DNA from: Phialocephala subalpina
Taxonomy: Eukaryota; Ascomycota; Leotiomycetes; Helotiales; Mollisiaceae
DNA length: 64,000 bases
Assembly: GCA_900073065.1 (NCBI GenBank)
Contig: FJOG01000018.1
Coordinates: 862,079-926,078, forward strand
Reading direction: 5' to 3'
The number at the start of each line of letters is the position of its first letter. Within the stretch, counting starts at the first letter, position 1. Of this stretch, positions 34,545 through 40,844 are shown piece by piece. The position numbers were made by a program, and so were the translations under genes. The notes below the pieces were generated by a model. The model made no database searches, was not told the DNA's origin, and saw nothing but the letters and a program-made list of their open reading frames with translations.

Positions 34545-36655
34545 ATGGGCACCCAGAAAGAAACCGGTAGCATTATGTTGCATGACATCAACATCTTGGA
34601 CTCGGAGGCTTTGAACCCCAGCCAACGAGTGAGAATAGCACAAAAACATAAGTGGAAATCCATTCGAGAGAATCCCAAGATCATCTTTATTGCATTTTTT
34701 GCTTCGTAAGTCATCGTACCCATTTGGTGGTAAACCTCTCGGGATGTATAATTGACATTCTCACAGCTTTGGTGGTTTCGAATATGGCTATCAACAGGGT
34801 GTCCTAGGCCAATCTCTTGTCATGTCGAGATTCAAATCGAACTTCCCATCAGTTGTTGCATCATCAAGCGCCACAGGCTGGCTTACCTCCGTCCTACAAC
34901 TGGGTGGTATTGTTGGTTCTCTTTCTTCCGGTGTCTTTGGGGAAGTCTTCTCTCGCAAATACACCATGTTTTCCGGTTGTTGCTGGGTCATTCTGGGGAG
35001 TCTGCTGTACATTGGCGCCAAAGATGGTCACCCTGCTCTCCTTTACGCCGGACGTTTCTTTACGGGTCTAGGAGTTGGAACGTTCAGCGGTGTTGGGTGC
35101 GTGCAATCCTCCGCTGAATAGAGCTCAAGTGTTGATGCTGCAAATAGGCCACTTTACAATGCAGAAATTTCGGCGCCGGAGATGCGTGGCTTCATCGTCT
35201 CGTTTTACCAATTTGCAACAATCCTAGGAATCATGCTTTCCTTCTGGGTTGGATATGCAAGCAACTACATCGGAGGTACAGGTGACGATCAATCCAACCT
35301 TGCCTGGCGCTTGCCATCCATCATCCAGAGCATTCCAGCTATCGCTCTATTCTTCGGCATTTGGTTCATGCCTTTTTCTCCACGTTGGCTGGTGAAGGCC
35401 GGTCGAGATGACGAAGCAAAATCGACCATCGCGTGGCTAAGAAAGCTCCCACTCGAACATGAACTAGTCCAAATCGAGTATCTTGAGATCAAGGCGGAAT
35501 CTTTGTTCGAGGAGAGAGCTTTTCAAAGATCCTTTCCCAACCTCGCGGCTAAGGAACAAAGAAGTGTTTGGGTCCACGAGTTCGCCCAGTACGTCAACTG
35601 CGTTAGAACTATGGACAATTTCAAGCGTGTATGCACAGCTTGGCTGGTCATGTTTTTCCAGCAGTGGAGTGGCATCGATGCAAGTCAGTGCTGTATATTT
35701 ATGCTCTGTCGCTCACCGCTGACTGCGATAGTTATTTATTACGCCCCACAAGTATTTGTCAGTTTGGGCCTTTCAAGTGGTACTATCTCTTTGCTTGCTA
35801 CTGGGGTCACCGGTGTGGTATTCTTTATTAGCACTCTACCGGCTATGGTAAGATCCCCTTGATTATTCTTCTGTTCTTGACTAACCTAAACAGTTAATCA
35901 TCGACAAAGTTGGAAGAAAACCTATGCTATATGTCGGTTCGGCAGTTATGTTTGTATCCAGTATGTATAATTCCCGCCTTGATTCCACCATTTCGCAAGG
36001 AGTCGAGCTCCCAAAGAGCTCGGCTCCTCGGTTCCTCGACTTCTCAGCATCCTTTGAAACCACTTACTAACTTCTTGTAGTGGTCCTCGTTGGTATAATC
36101 GTGGCAAAATTTCGCCATAACTGGGCTGATCACGGAGATGCTGGTAAGACGCTGTGAATCTATCTGAATATAGCTAACATTTGGGTATCAGGTTGGGTCG
36201 CTGTAGCGTTCATCTGGGTTTACATCGGAGCGTTCGGCGGCACATGGGGACCAGTCTCGTGGACTTTAGTCTCGGAGATCTTCCCCCTCTCTATCCGTGC
36301 TAAAGGTGCTTCCATCGGGGCCTCAAGCAACTGGGTCAATAATTTCGCAGTTGCTTTCTTTGTACCCCCGATGCTAAAAGCATGGGCCTGGGGGACTTAC
36401 ATCTTCTTCTCAGTATTTCTCGCTGGGGGCATAGTGTGGGTGTACTTCTACCTGCCCGAAACGATGAATGCGACCTTAGAGGAGATGGATCGGGTTTTCA
36501 AGAGTCACACTGGCGAAGCGGATGCGCGCTTGCTAGACGAGGTGAAAAGAGAGATTGGGCTCCTGCCACCCTCGTCTGCGAGCGTAAGCGGCAATGATGA
36601 GATGGACAAGCCAACGATAATGGCAGAGGAGAAATATTTGGAAAAGGGGATGTGA
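34545..36655 (+). CDS. MFS sugar/H+ symporter-type transporter
   Basis: Seven exons (34545..34705, 34767..35096, 35148..35683, 35732..35847, 35894..35960, 36081..36143, 36192..36655) give 578 residues. Sugar-porter hallmarks are present: FGGFEYGYQQGVLGQ in TM1, GRFFTGLGVGTFSG, PLYNAEISAPEMRG, PFSPRWLVKAGRDDEA, QQWSGIDAIIYYAPQ, DKVGRKPML, WTLVSEIFPLSIRAKG and the exit motif LPETMNATLEEMD. Twelve TM segments fit. It should import hexose, pentose or another polyol/sugar across the plasma membrane; the substrate is not readable. The fifth intron (35961..36080) is an introner-like element shared with the NCS1 permease gene downstream. An ATG 63 bp upstream is in frame, but the chosen start is more like the family. 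Confidence 0.9.
35961..36080 (+). repeat. Introner-like element forming intron 5 of the MFS gene
   Basis: The whole 120-nt intron, from GTATGTATAA to the branch region TTACTAAC, aligns with intron 3 of the unrelated NCS1 permease gene (40042..40176, minus strand). Shared blocks include AGGAGTCGAGCTCC, AGCTCGGCTCCTCG and AGCATCCTTTGAAACC. The internal blocks are mutually complementary and could fold as a hairpin. Confidence 0.85.
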
Positions 36656-38641
36656 TATCAGAAGAACGTGTATCGAGCCTATCGACATAAGTCCATGTTC
36701 CTGAGGATGTCGAAAAGTGCAATCACTAATGATATGATTGATTATGGCACTTAACTAGTCCCATTGAGCGATTTCGAGCTTACCGTTACTGCTTCTACTC
36801 TTATCTAATGTGGTTAACTTTACTTGGTTCACATGCACCTATAAAACATCCTATGTGAGTGCTAGAATTAATCGTCGTTCAGTGAATTATAGGAATTAAG
36901 GGAGCTTGTAACTTCAGGTACGTTTCTTTCAGGAAGAGTATTTTTTCTACGAAGAGATACGAGGATATAACGTGAAAACAAATACCGAAGAGCGTACTGG
37001 GAAAGTCGCCTCCCAAAAAAGAGTTGTAGCGAGAGGGAAGGAGTGAGGCAGTGGTGATGAAGGAGGTGCTGGTCGAGTGCTTGGCGGGCAGAACTTAAAA
37101 AGGGACGTCCAGAAGTTCGAAATGGTTGCGAACACAAAGTGAAGTGCTACTTCGAATTGAACTGCGGCGTTGAGAACTACTTGAAGAGACAAATTGCTTC
37201 GACATTTCTTGAGGTGACCTGATTCCTAGTTCTTTCGCCAAAGATAGGAACACAGCTTAGTGCGCGTGAACTTCAAGCGAGTCACAGCTGCAGGCTTTGA
37301 TCGCTAAAAATAAGGGACCCACGGTGCTGTACGGAGTCTCAGGGTATCACCCACTATATTCTAGGCTCTTGGTCACTAAACCTTAACACCCAACGCTGAA
37401 CCTCCTATGATCTATTTCTTTACTATGACTTTTGACATATGTTGCTGATTCATTTCATCAATGATTCGAAACTGAAAATAGGCAACCGTATCATGGGAAA
37501 CGGCTTCCTGGATCGCACGCACATTTTTCTCTCACAGCTGCAGGCTTTGATCGCTAAAAATAAGGGACCCACGGTGCTGTACGGAGTCTCAGGGTATCAC
37601 CCACTATATTCTAGGCTCTTGGTCACTAAACCTTAACACCCAACGCTGAACCTCCTATGATCTATTTCTTTACTATGACTTTTGACATATGTTGCTGATT
37701 CATTTCATCAATGATTCGAAACTGAAAATAGGCAACCGTATCATGGGAAACGGCTTCCTGGATCGCACGCACATTTTTCTCTCAGTATCAAAGAATCTAA
37801 ACCCAACAAGAAGAAAGGGGCACAAGAAAAACCAGAGAAGACCTTCAACACAAGCCCTACAATGCCATCCCGCACCCCTCACCCGCTCTTCACACACCCA
37901 CATTCTCTACACCCCATCCCTCTTCCTTCTAGATCCTCCGGCGGGCCCTCTCCCAGTTGCCAGACACGTATTCGGGTTTGAGAGGCACTAGCATATATTG
38001 AAGAATGGCATGGATTCTTCCATGTTTTTGTGTTCAGTATTGGATCGTGTTAGATGAGATGGTTTGCTTCGGTCAGAGGATTGGAAAGGTTGTTCTTGAT
38101 TTGTGTTTCAGTTGGTGGATGTTCTGATCGGATTTGACACTGTTGTTGAATGAAGTAGGGGAGAAAATGTTGAGTAGAATTCGAAGTTTATTTTATTTTA
38201 TAGAGGGGATTGTGAAGTGAGTAATGCGTGACTGTATTGAATCAAGAGCGTATTGCCATGTATAGAAACGATCACTTGAGCGCATGCTTTTGATTGAGAT
38301 GCCTAGTAGGAATAGAATAGTAAGATAGCAACGGATGATTCAAAAACAATATGAATACAGCTTCCCCGGATTCTCGCATCCTCTAGGACTCATGAGCTTG
38401 TCCTCTCACGAAAAATTCATAAACGCGAGAATGTGAAATGACTTCAAAGATCAAACAGTATTGCACTAGCCACATAGCCTAGAACAAGGAGGTTAATGGT
38501 AATTTTAATCTGAGAAAAAAGACCAGGACAAGTTTGTAGGTCCACAATCGCAGAGCTAAAGCAGGTCTCCCACGCGCCAAGACAGAATACTCGGATTCTC
38601 ATTCCTTTGAACAGCTGAATATACGTATGCGATAGCCATCA
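36656..38641. other. Convergent intergenic region with a perfect tandem duplication
   Basis: Lies between the 3' ends of the sugar transporter (plus) and NCS1 permease (minus). It contains the 250-bp tandem repeat described separately. Frames around 36870-37190 and 38640 have no supported coding function. Confidence 0.5.
37282..37781. repeat. Two perfect head-to-tail 250-bp copies
   Basis: Copy 1 is 37282-37531 and copy 2 is 37532-37781. I see no difference between them along the full unit, which starts TCACAGCTGCAGGCTTTGAT and ends CACATTTTTCTC. The first ~110 bp of each copy belongs to the GCTAAA-type dispersed repeat also found at 51910-52015. Identity implies a very recent duplication or an assembly artefact. 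Confidence 0.9.
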
Positions 38642-40844
38642 TCATCTCTTCTCCTCCCCATCACCATACCCCTGCTCCCTCGCCACCTCCTCCGAACTCG
38701 CATCCAAATCCCTTGGCCTCACACTCCTCCCCTCCTCAACAAATATCGTCCCATCCTCCGCAACCAGCGTATCCCCCCTCTGACTCTCCCACCCTAGTCC
38801 CATCTCCTTAATCAACCTCTGATTCTTAGTCGGCCATACAGTACAAAGTCCCCAATAAACCACAAAACTAATCGTGAAACTCAACAACCAGCCCAAGCGT
38901 CCGAGATCGGTAGCAGAGGTGGAGACGTGTGCTCCAAGCGTGCCCGCGAAACCAGGGAAGGGAGGAACGATACCGCAGATATAGGCGATGAGGGCTTGGA
39001 TGTTCCAGCCGCGGTGGTAGTAGTAGTGTTTGTTGGTCTTGGAGCCGTTGTAGAGGTTTCCGATGAAGACGTTGCCGTTGGTCAGGAGGTAATCTGTATG
39101 TTGTCAGTATTCATCATGTAGTATATCTTGGGGAAAGATGCTTACAGTCGCAGATCATGACAGCAACAACGGACGCCATGAAAAGACCGTATCCTGACAA
39201 GAACGTCGTGAATACGGAAGCTGAGGCGAGAATCTTCCATGGACAGATGGCGAAACCGAGGAACTCAACGAGGAATTGGCCACGTGGGATGGTGATGTAG
39301 CGGGGGAAGAGCATGCTGGAATCTGAGCCGAATGGAATCATGTTCGCTGCGATGTTTGTTCCGAGGATTGATACCATCCACGTGAAAGCAGACAGGAAGA
39401 CTGCGAACCTCACACTACCTGACCAATATCTGTCGAGGATGGCGCCAAGTAAATCCCAGGGGTTCCATAAGTCCAGTCCCCAACTATTGTTGATGGCCGC
39501 GGTAGCGAGAATGCCAAGAGATGCTGACAATGTAACAGCAATGGGGTTGGTGATCAATTGCGACCATTGAGCTCCAGATGCAGTCCTACTCCATCGAGCA
39601 ATATCGGGCTGGTTGGTGATCAAAGTTGCCGTATTGCCCATGCCGCTGTTGATGGCATACATGATAAACCAACCCTTGCTACCTATGATCTTTTCTTTGT
39701 ACAATCCACCTGAAATATTGGCCTTCGTGTTAACCATACAGAAGATGAACAGTCCCCACACAGCCGGAAGGATGATGATTGACTTGAACCAGAAAAATCC
39801 CCGAAGCTGGTAGGGCCTGAAAGCACAAAATGGAAAGTGTACCAGCCAGAACAAGAAAAAGGCCAGCATTCCAGATGTGGTGATGCCGACTGACTCTGGA
39901 ATATGATTGGGGATGTCTGTGTAGTTGTGGCCAAAGATACAGCGGAGAATGTTTGCCATGAAGCTCGCGCCGGAGTACACTGCTAGATATTAGATCACCC
40001 TCAATGGGCTGGAAACAGCACTCACATTGTACACCATACCACTACAACCAGTTAGTAAGAGGTTTCAAAGGATGCTTAGGAGTCGAGGAGCCGAGCTTCC
40101 TTCTCGACTCTTGAAACATGTTTCAGGAGCTCGACTCCTCACGAAAGGGTAGATTCAGGGCAGGATTTATACATACGATGATCGCCAATGCGGCACGAGC
40201 ACCCACGAAATAGTAGCTGTAGATGTTCTCAGGCCAAGTGCTTCATTAACCATAAGGGGAGAAGAGATCCCACCTGCCCCACATCCCAAAAACGCTTCGA
40301 GCAACGACCGGGTAGCCGATGTTGTAGACACTGGCGCATCTTGAGTTGAAGAACATGGCAATTGATGAGATCAATTGACTGGCAAAGATCACAAGGATAC
40401 TCTCCTGCCATCAGAATCTCAAAGTTAGTTTCCTGCTTTTGAACCTTTTGGAGTACAAATGCATGTCTTAGGAATGCATTGCTCCCGAGTACGTTGGAGT
40501 AATGCACTCCTAAGACAACACGAGAAGGGGAAATACTTCAAAAAATTGATACTTGCCCACCAATTGAGACCAATTCCAACCATTGTACTCCCCAGAGTCC
40601 AGTTTCCAAATGACAGCCCCATATAGAACGTGACATAATTCCACCATCGCCAGGTCCGCTTTTCAGGAGGGGTAGGATCCAAATCTTCATTCGACCATGT
40701 CTCCTTGGAAGCAGGGTCTCGATGCTTATCCAGGGCCGTATCATGAGTCTCAATGAAGTACTTGAAGCCCTCGCGACTCCTGAAAGCATTCTTCAATACC
40801 GTGGTCTTCTCCACGACAACTGTCTTGATTTTGGTGACGCCCAT
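38642..40844 (-). CDS. NCS1 family nucleobase/allantoin-type permease
   Basis: Six exons (40557..40844, 40274..40404, 40177..40216, 40026..40041, 39146..39982, 38642..39093) give 587 residues. Family blocks include WRWWNYVTFYMGLSFGNW, ESILVIFASQLISSIAMFF, YPVVARSVFGMWGSYYF, SGMGNTATLITNQPDIARW and RGWNIQALIAYICGIVPPF. About 12 TM segments fit a Fur4/Dal4-like proton symporter for uracil, allantoin or related compounds at the plasma membrane. Substrate is inferred only to that level. Intron 1 (40405..40556) begins GCAAGT, a GC-AG intron. Exon 4 is only 16 nt. Intron 3 (40042..40176) is an introner-like element. An in-frame ATG at 40898 would add 18 residues. Confidence 0.9.
40042..40176 (-). 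repeat. Introner-like element forming intron 3 of the NCS1 permease gene
   Basis: A 135-nt intron, near-identical from donor GTATGTATAA through AGGAGTCGAGCTCC to AGCATCCTTTGAAACC and the branch TTACTAAC to intron 5 of the MFS gene. It has an extra ~15 nt in the hairpin region. The host genes are unrelated in sequence and lie 4 kb apart in opposite orientation. Confidence 0.85.

Follow-up and report, generated by a model that had tools for sequence, protein, structure and literature searches.

The window analysed here is a stretch of 64,000 nucleotides of the genome of the root endophyte Phialocephala subalpina (positions 862,079 to 926,078 of contig FJOG01000018.1, assembly GCA_900073065.1). 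It contains, on opposite strands, a gene for a sugar/quinate transporter of the MFS and a gene for an NCS1 permease of the uracil/allantoin type (Table 1). The encoded proteins belong to different families, Sugar_tr/MFS_1 and Transp_cyt_pur, in agreement with the preliminary description of this DNA, which had called the two genes non-homologous. Residues 11-578 of the spliced MFS model are identical (568/568) to the deposited P. subalpina 'probable MFS quinate transporter' (P0121). For the NCS1 model, the top named relative is from Mollisia scopiformis (89%), and homologues suggest that the acceptor of intron 4 lies 3 nt further in, giving a protein of 586 aa. Intron 5 of the MFS gene and intron 3 of the NCS1 gene are related copies of a repeated intron, here called F1, while a second introner-like family, F2, is represented by intron 1 of the NCS1 gene. 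As set out below, F1 is almost certainly a mobile family of fungal introner-like elements.

Both F1 introns begin with GTATGT and end with TTGTAG, and they can be aligned over their full length with 75% identity in 136 columns (E 1.4e-23, two-sequence BLAST). They have in common the words AGGAGTCGAGCTCC (at position 38 of both introns), AGCTCGGCTCCTCG (at 57 of the MFS and 80 of the NCS1 copy) and AGCATCCTTTGAAACC (at 86 and 101, respectively). The preliminary description had placed both introns exactly to the single base and had named these three words, all of which are found in both. It had also spoken of near-identical whole introns, and this was right for the alignment, which runs from donor to acceptor, but too strong for the pair itself, which comes from different sub-lineages. 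The first 49 nt indeed show few differences, although 8 are counted and not nine or ten.

The genome was searched in an assembly of 68.1 Mb and 119 contigs, and the counts are lower bounds given that only top candidates were scored. With the 120-nt MFS intron as the BLAST query, all of the best 40 of 90 candidates matched, 39 spanning query positions 1-120 and one spanning 8-120. A 26-base pattern of the 3' end with up to three mismatches gave 76 matches, a 30-base pattern of the 5' end gave 69, and a 40-base pattern of the hairpin gave 45; the reversed controls gave 0 in each case, which rules out chance similarity. Clustering of all places found with the 3' and 5' patterns, 14 of the 45 hairpin places and 6 of the 40 BLAST places (the rest being judged by eye as already present) resulted in 89 copies, to which a search with another sub-lineage added 2, which makes at least 91 in total. 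The 89 clustered copies lie on 31 contigs, 46 copies on one strand and 43 on the other. No match to the 5' end of F1 came up in IMG/VR, and neither a group II intron nor any other structured RNA catalogued in Rfam was matched at gathering score in window positions 35900-40600.

The donor is GT in all 89 copies read (GTATGT in 81), after correction of the starts of four copies with altered 5' parts; the frame assignment, folding z scores, flank comparison, background-target and relatedness tests described below used the uncorrected starts of these four. The acceptor is AG in 88 of the 89. The similarity stops at the splice sites, which rules out a transposable element nested in old introns. The preliminary description had proposed that the intron itself had moved as an introner-like element, and had considered that an absence of further intron-confined copies, or hits spread equally over intergenic DNA, would speak against this. 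What the search returned are full-length matches that sit on donor and acceptor in many genes, and this registration, the number of copies and their unrelated flanks bear the proposal out.

The 112-nt consensus of F1 is GTATGTATAAATCCCGCCCTGATTCTACCATTTCGTAGGGAGTCGAGCTCCCGAAGAGCTCGGCTCCTCGACTCCTCAGCATCCTTTGAAACCACTTACTAACTTCTTGTAG. Lengths range from 56 to 146 nt, with 73 of 89 copies at 104-120 nt, and 66 of 89 measure 96, 104, 112, 120, 128 or 136 nt. This ladder of 8-nt steps is attributed to units similar to TCCTCGAC having been gained or lost at the side of the hairpin; in the MFS copy the tract of 8-nt repeats comes directly after the hairpin. Could slippage during copying be the cause of the ladder? 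A simple rule divides the copies into 70 of sub-lineage A, 14 of sub-lineage B (..GCTAAC-type tail) and 5 of the long sub-lineage C, and the window has one A and one C. The median identity to the nearest neighbour is 94%, the top pair reaches 99%, and identity to the MFS intron goes up to 91%. The copies C51:2647707 (L083), C111:830155 (L040) and C51:3170541 (L086) have either lost much of their interior (leaving 56 nt, still GT..AG) or had their first few bases replaced, with GTAAAT as the donor.

The sequences around the copies are unrelated, with only 2 weak hits among 3916 locus pairs in flanks of up to 300 nt, which extends to the family what the preliminary description had said of the unlike exons beside the two window introns. 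The reading frame is open on both sides of 81 of the 89 copies, for which the phase was set by the open frames and not by homology. In 39 copies a clear frame exists on each side, and the two match in 32 of these (permutation mean 16.0, maximum 26 in 2000). The 133 sense flank peptides gave 54 Pfam families, with Sugar_tr (10 peptides) and MFS_1 (9 peptides) at the top and many overlapping WD40 models among the rest; the composition is known for 25 of these families, and scans of single peptides covered 38 of the 133. Among the 82 antisense flank peptides scanned there was no Pfam match. Most F1 copies are therefore situated within coding exons and oriented in sense.

Insertion was seamless at all six F1 sites testable by homology. 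Met404 of the MFS transporter is Met in 120 of the 120 homologues listed (378 found), with no gap within five residues. Of the 120 homologue rows listed for the NCS1 permease (302 found), 107 are ungapped at Trp154, with Trp in 101 and Tyr in 6, and the other 13 are gapped there; a gap of one residue, five residues past Trp154, occurs in nearly all rows and is a consequence of the acceptor of the next intron in the gene model. In four other hosts the domain profile continues across the F1 site with just the expected residues in between, namely AA_permease on C117 (profile positions 159 to 163, exactly three residues), MFS_1 on C75 (112 to 117, four residues), Transp_cyt_pur on C54 (365 to 367, one residue) and Sugar_tr on C96 (399 to 402, two residues). 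That TG(G) is carried by F1 and adds a codon is ruled out, given that Met404 and Trp154 are conserved and no residue was added in the six hosts.

Within the genome, paralogues of both window hosts are uninterrupted at the F1 site. The two closest MFS paralogues read through it for 564 nt (188 codons) each, and 9 of 14 NCS1 paralogue segments spanning Trp154 are free of stops (C64, C47, C54, C51, C110, C46, C45, C117 and C112), the other five containing stops and not being judged. Another Transp_cyt_pur permease, at C54:614062 (L017), has an F1 copy at a different domain position than the NCS1 gene of the window, so that F1 would have entered two related genes independently.

The exon bases next to F1 follow a marked pattern (a slash denotes the position of the intron). 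Position +1 is T in 83 of 89 copies and +2 is G in 78, with TG jointly in 76 and TGG in 51, and position -1 is A in 54. Ordinary intron candidates from the window and 29 loci, which are pattern-based and unvalidated, have TG at +1,+2 in 8 of 88 cases and G at -1 in 39 of 88; for TG the difference to F1 has a Fisher p of 1.2e-26. Compared with phase-matched TG sites in the same exons (n=71), enrichment is observed for C at -3 (32 observed, 16.1 expected), A at -1 (42, 21.0), G at +3 (46, 25.4) and T at +5 (34, 20.1). Phases 0/1/2 are represented by 22/48/11 copies (n=81), which differs from the TG background (p 1e-7). This bias is largely predicted by the motif (0.19/0.53/0.28), with a residual p of 0.008 in a position weight matrix test that is partly circular. 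It is clear that the target (A)/TG(G) is strong and is not a protosplice site. A T at exon position +1 is not expected to be favoured by the acceptor, and therefore selection for splicing would be a poor explanation of the pattern and a preference at insertion a better one. A pairing of TCTACCAT in the intron with the ATGG target was considered and dropped, given that sub-lineages that have ACCAG or ACCAA insert at TGG all the same. In spliceosomal twin introns (stwintrons) of the [D1,2] type an internal intron splits the donor behind its first G; F1 does not fit this, as a G precedes the GT donor in only 8 of 89 copies.

The F1 consensus is predicted to fold into a 13-bp hairpin with a minimum free energy of -27.3 kcal/mol, and a hairpin, which the preliminary description had named as a trait of known introner-like elements, is thus predicted inside the element. 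The cells of its base pairs are paired in 95.2% of cases over 34 copies, versus 31-52% in slid versions of the same alignment, which consists of the 35 copies scored as 112 nt minus L080, whose 5' part is altered.

The F2 intron of the window matched 18 other places when used as query, and a better F2 copy gave at least 40 matches of 81-100% identity (best 40 of 86 candidates). A pattern of its 3' end had 81 matches versus 1 for the reversed control, and BLAST detected no similarity between F2 and the 89 F1 copies. The element is about 163 nt long, GTAAGCATCAA..CTCGGAG...CTCCGAG..TTGATGAACAG, with the arms of an inverted repeat lying slightly inward of its two ends. Across 12 copies, 93.5% of the stem cells are paired and 5 cells show double changes, a number reached by 1 of 500 shuffles (shuffled mean 2.0), although relatedness of the copies can inflate this. 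The exon signature is T/G, with G at +1 in 12 of 12 copies and T at -1 in 9 of 12 (the end of L107 being uncertain). An F1 copy at C115:1244386 and an F2 copy at C115:1245440 lie about 1 kb apart, like the F1/F2 pair in the NCS1 gene of the window.

Between the two transporter genes, window positions 37282-37781 hold an exact tandem duplication of 250 nt, with two 100% identical copies, which could be recent or an artefact of the assembly.

Table 1. Features of the window, in window coordinates.
Feature	Position	Strand	Remarks
Host gene 1, MFS sugar/quinate transporter	34545..36655	+	578 aa in model
F1 copy (intron 5 of host gene 1)	35961..36080	+	120 nt, phase 1, within Met404 (A/TG)
13-bp hairpin in the MFS copy (predicted)	35998..36028	+	stem AGGAGTCGAGCTC/GAGCTCGGCTCCT, loop CCAAA; RNA fold and 34-copy alignment
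Conserved 3' end of the MFS copy	36046..36080	+	AGCATCCTTTGAAACC-ACTTACTAAC-TTCTTGTAG, branch-point-like CTAAC, acceptor TAG
Host gene 2, NCS1 permease (uracil/allantoin-type)	38642..40844	-	587 aa in model
F1 copy, long sub-lineage (intron 3 of host gene 2)	40042..40176	-	135 nt, phase 0, directly before Trp154 (TGG)
F2 copy, intron 1 of the same NCS1 gene	40405..40556	-	152 nt, GC-AG ends, near-terminal inverted repeat

The many copies, their registration with the splice sites, the unrelated flanks, the seamless and sense-biased insertion and direct repeats at chance level together identify F1, with very high probability, as an introner-like element. The explanation that best covers all observations, to which a probability of roughly 0.8 is given, is that F1 consists of complete spliceosomal introns that copy themselves into coding exons of unrelated genes, presumably as RNA. 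The spliced-out, hairpin-bearing F1 RNA would be put back, in the sense direction, at A/TGG in transcribed sequence by reverse splicing, with either RNA or the open strand of an R-loop as the recipient, and would then be copied into DNA. The new copy would at once be spliced out of the transcript of its new host and, therefore, its insertion would cost the gene little. That the copying step itself runs through RNA is favoured by a small measure. The strongest argument for this route is that few copies are non-coding. Exons make up about half of the genome, as estimated from the figures of the genome paper (20,173 genes, exons of 443.9 bp and 2.7 introns in each gene; PMC5148876), and neutral insertions of DNA should therefore leave many copies outside.

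Several observations weigh against this explanation. The target is unusual for a route through RNA, given that AG/G is found at 1 of 89 F1 sites and A/TGG is not the context expected for the spliceosome. No frame was assigned to 8 of the 89 copies, one of which is the MFS copy of the window, coding by its gene model, and the copy at C51:1758208 has no good sense frame and lies in an antisense opening of 140 codons, for which there was no Pfam match. The NCS1 copy of the window is among the 7 of 39 with disagreeing frames, which is attributed to the closeness of the neighbouring introns. Openness of the frame is itself a weak test of orientation, being higher in sense than in antisense for 64 copies, equal for 10 and lower for 15 of the 89. 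In one copy, at C54:324530, the acceptor AG is gone. The folding z has a mean of -1.7 across the copies relative to mononucleotide shuffles, with 13 of 89 below -3, and the hairpin has no clear excess of compensatory changes, its covariation score being reached by 44 of 500 shuffles. The hairpin, paired without such an excess, would therefore be inherited, with no sign of selection keeping it after insertion.

Among the alternatives, F1 could be a DNA element, non-autonomous and equipped with both splice sites, that inserts bluntly at A/TGG, the copies elsewhere having been lost. The sharp extended motif C.A/TGG.T does resemble the DNA preference of an enzyme, and in a survey of introners 78.5% of the judged families outside the ascomycetes carry target-site duplications (TSDs) or terminal inverted repeats (TIRs) (PMC9860276). 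In F1, however, direct repeats of 2-3 nt are found in 6 of 89 copies, which is the chance level (mean of 5.9 in shuffled pairings), and no TIR was seen by eye in the consensus. Furthermore, neutral copies would be expected in the non-exonic part, roughly half, of the genome, and yet only 8 of 89 copies are without a sense frame and the antisense peptides match nothing in Pfam, so that transposition as DNA is considered unlikely. The lack of TSDs, the seamless junctions and the hairpin RNA would suit the capture of excised intron RNA, ligated at double-strand breaks during their repair, a published proposal for the related sister introns of Hypoxylaceae (PMC12403724, PMC8469720). Random breaks would give no reason for TG at 76 of 89 sites, and this makes the capture model improbable for F1.

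The donor's own exon bases (..A/../TGG..) might also have guided complementary DNA of F1 into matching sites by recombination at micro-homology. Relatedness of the introns correlates with the flank at +1,+2 (r=0.38, p=0.001) and, very weakly, at -8..-4 (r=0.075, p=0.02), and the related copies C36:651718 and C47:3067341 both have TCC and not TGG. The correlation at +1,+2 may stem from divergent outlier copies, however; at +3 the p is 0.07, no significant correlation is seen at +4..+8, +9..+20 and -3..-1, and pairs of copies with 97-99% identity have TG in common and little else alike in their flanks. Guidance of this kind thus seems quite improbable. Finally, transporter families recur among the hosts, as the counts for Sugar_tr and MFS_1 among the 133 flank peptides illustrate, which could mean that gene duplication or exon shuffling, and not movement of the intron, has spread the copies. 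The flanking exons do not match, the insertion points in the two NCS1-type hosts differ and paralogues exist without the intron. Duplication is already contradicted for the copies examined and has next to no chance of being right for the family.

Taking both families together, it is conceivable, though doubtful, that F1 is target-directed, recognising an extended motif around A/TGG that is not a protosplice site and inserting seamlessly in the sense direction, while F2, with its near-terminal stem and T/G signature, spreads in the same genome and even in the same gene. Such a motif combined with seamless sense insertion would point to a specific integrating activity, either a reverse-splicing complex in modified form or an endonuclease and a reverse transcriptase that were recruited, and not to the repair of random breaks. 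The presence of F2 with a different exon signature in the same gene would then mean that the signature is set by the intron.

The origin of new introns is a long-standing question, and F1 may help to show how introns are born. The unusual target preference is its most interesting feature. The motif is strong enough to predict new insertion sites and, therefore, to distinguish between DNA transposition, reverse splicing and the repair of random breaks. Two families, F1 with at least 91 copies and F2 with about 80 pattern matches, are available in one isolated and sequenced fungal species. The published P. subalpina genome (69.7 Mb) has an RNA interference pathway, evidence of repeat-induced point mutation and few transposable elements (PMC5148876); the main text of that paper makes no use of the term 'introner'. 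In the literature searched, with supplements and subscription papers outside its scope, 'introner' and 'Phialocephala' were not found together, and the uses of 'introner' together with 'Leotiomycetes' concern only Dothideomycetes or the title of a reference. As far as this search goes, F1 is new as an introner-like family and extends these elements to the Leotiomycetes.

The closest resemblance is to the introner-like elements of the Dothideomycetes Fulvia fulva, Dothistroma and Zymoseptoria, in which near-identical full introns are likewise found in unrelated genes, with several families per genome and two elements in one gene (PMC4457414). These also insert seamlessly and have a predicted secondary structure, and they are reported to prefer AG/GY (both as cited in PMC8469720), whereas F1 prefers (A)/TG(G); AG/GY is a reported tendency and not a defining property. 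The host of F1 belongs to another class, being a member of the Helotiales in the Leotiomycetes. The sister stwintrons and cropped sister introns of Hypoxylaceae and Xylariaceae are, as here, described as seamless, without TSD, functional only on the coding strand and symmetrical as RNA (PMC8469720, PMC12403724), and the near-terminal inverted repeat of F2 resembles the near-terminal inverted repeat element (NTIRE) described for the Hypoxylaceae elements. Hypoxylaceae stwintrons are nested, whereas F1 and F2 are read as single introns, and the accounts of the Hypoxylaceae elements in these two papers describe them as free of exon bias and, in Hypoxylon, also of phase bias, while F1 has both. 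The 2022 survey, which covered 3,325 genomes, describes introners that are similar up to the splice sites, as F1 is, and notes GC-rich insertion motifs for many families (PMC9860276). Phialocephala, Mollisia and Leotiomycetes are absent from its main text, its species list and families being placed in supplements. The introners of Micromonas and Aureococcus, which are DNA transposons, resemble F1 in the mass creation of introns in coding exons (PMC9860276, PMC12403724); unlike them, F1 is without TSD and borrows no splice site from its target, given that it carries both. The ascomycete families of the survey are, like F1, without TIR or TSD, and form an outlier group of introners lacking the signatures of transposons (PMC9860276).

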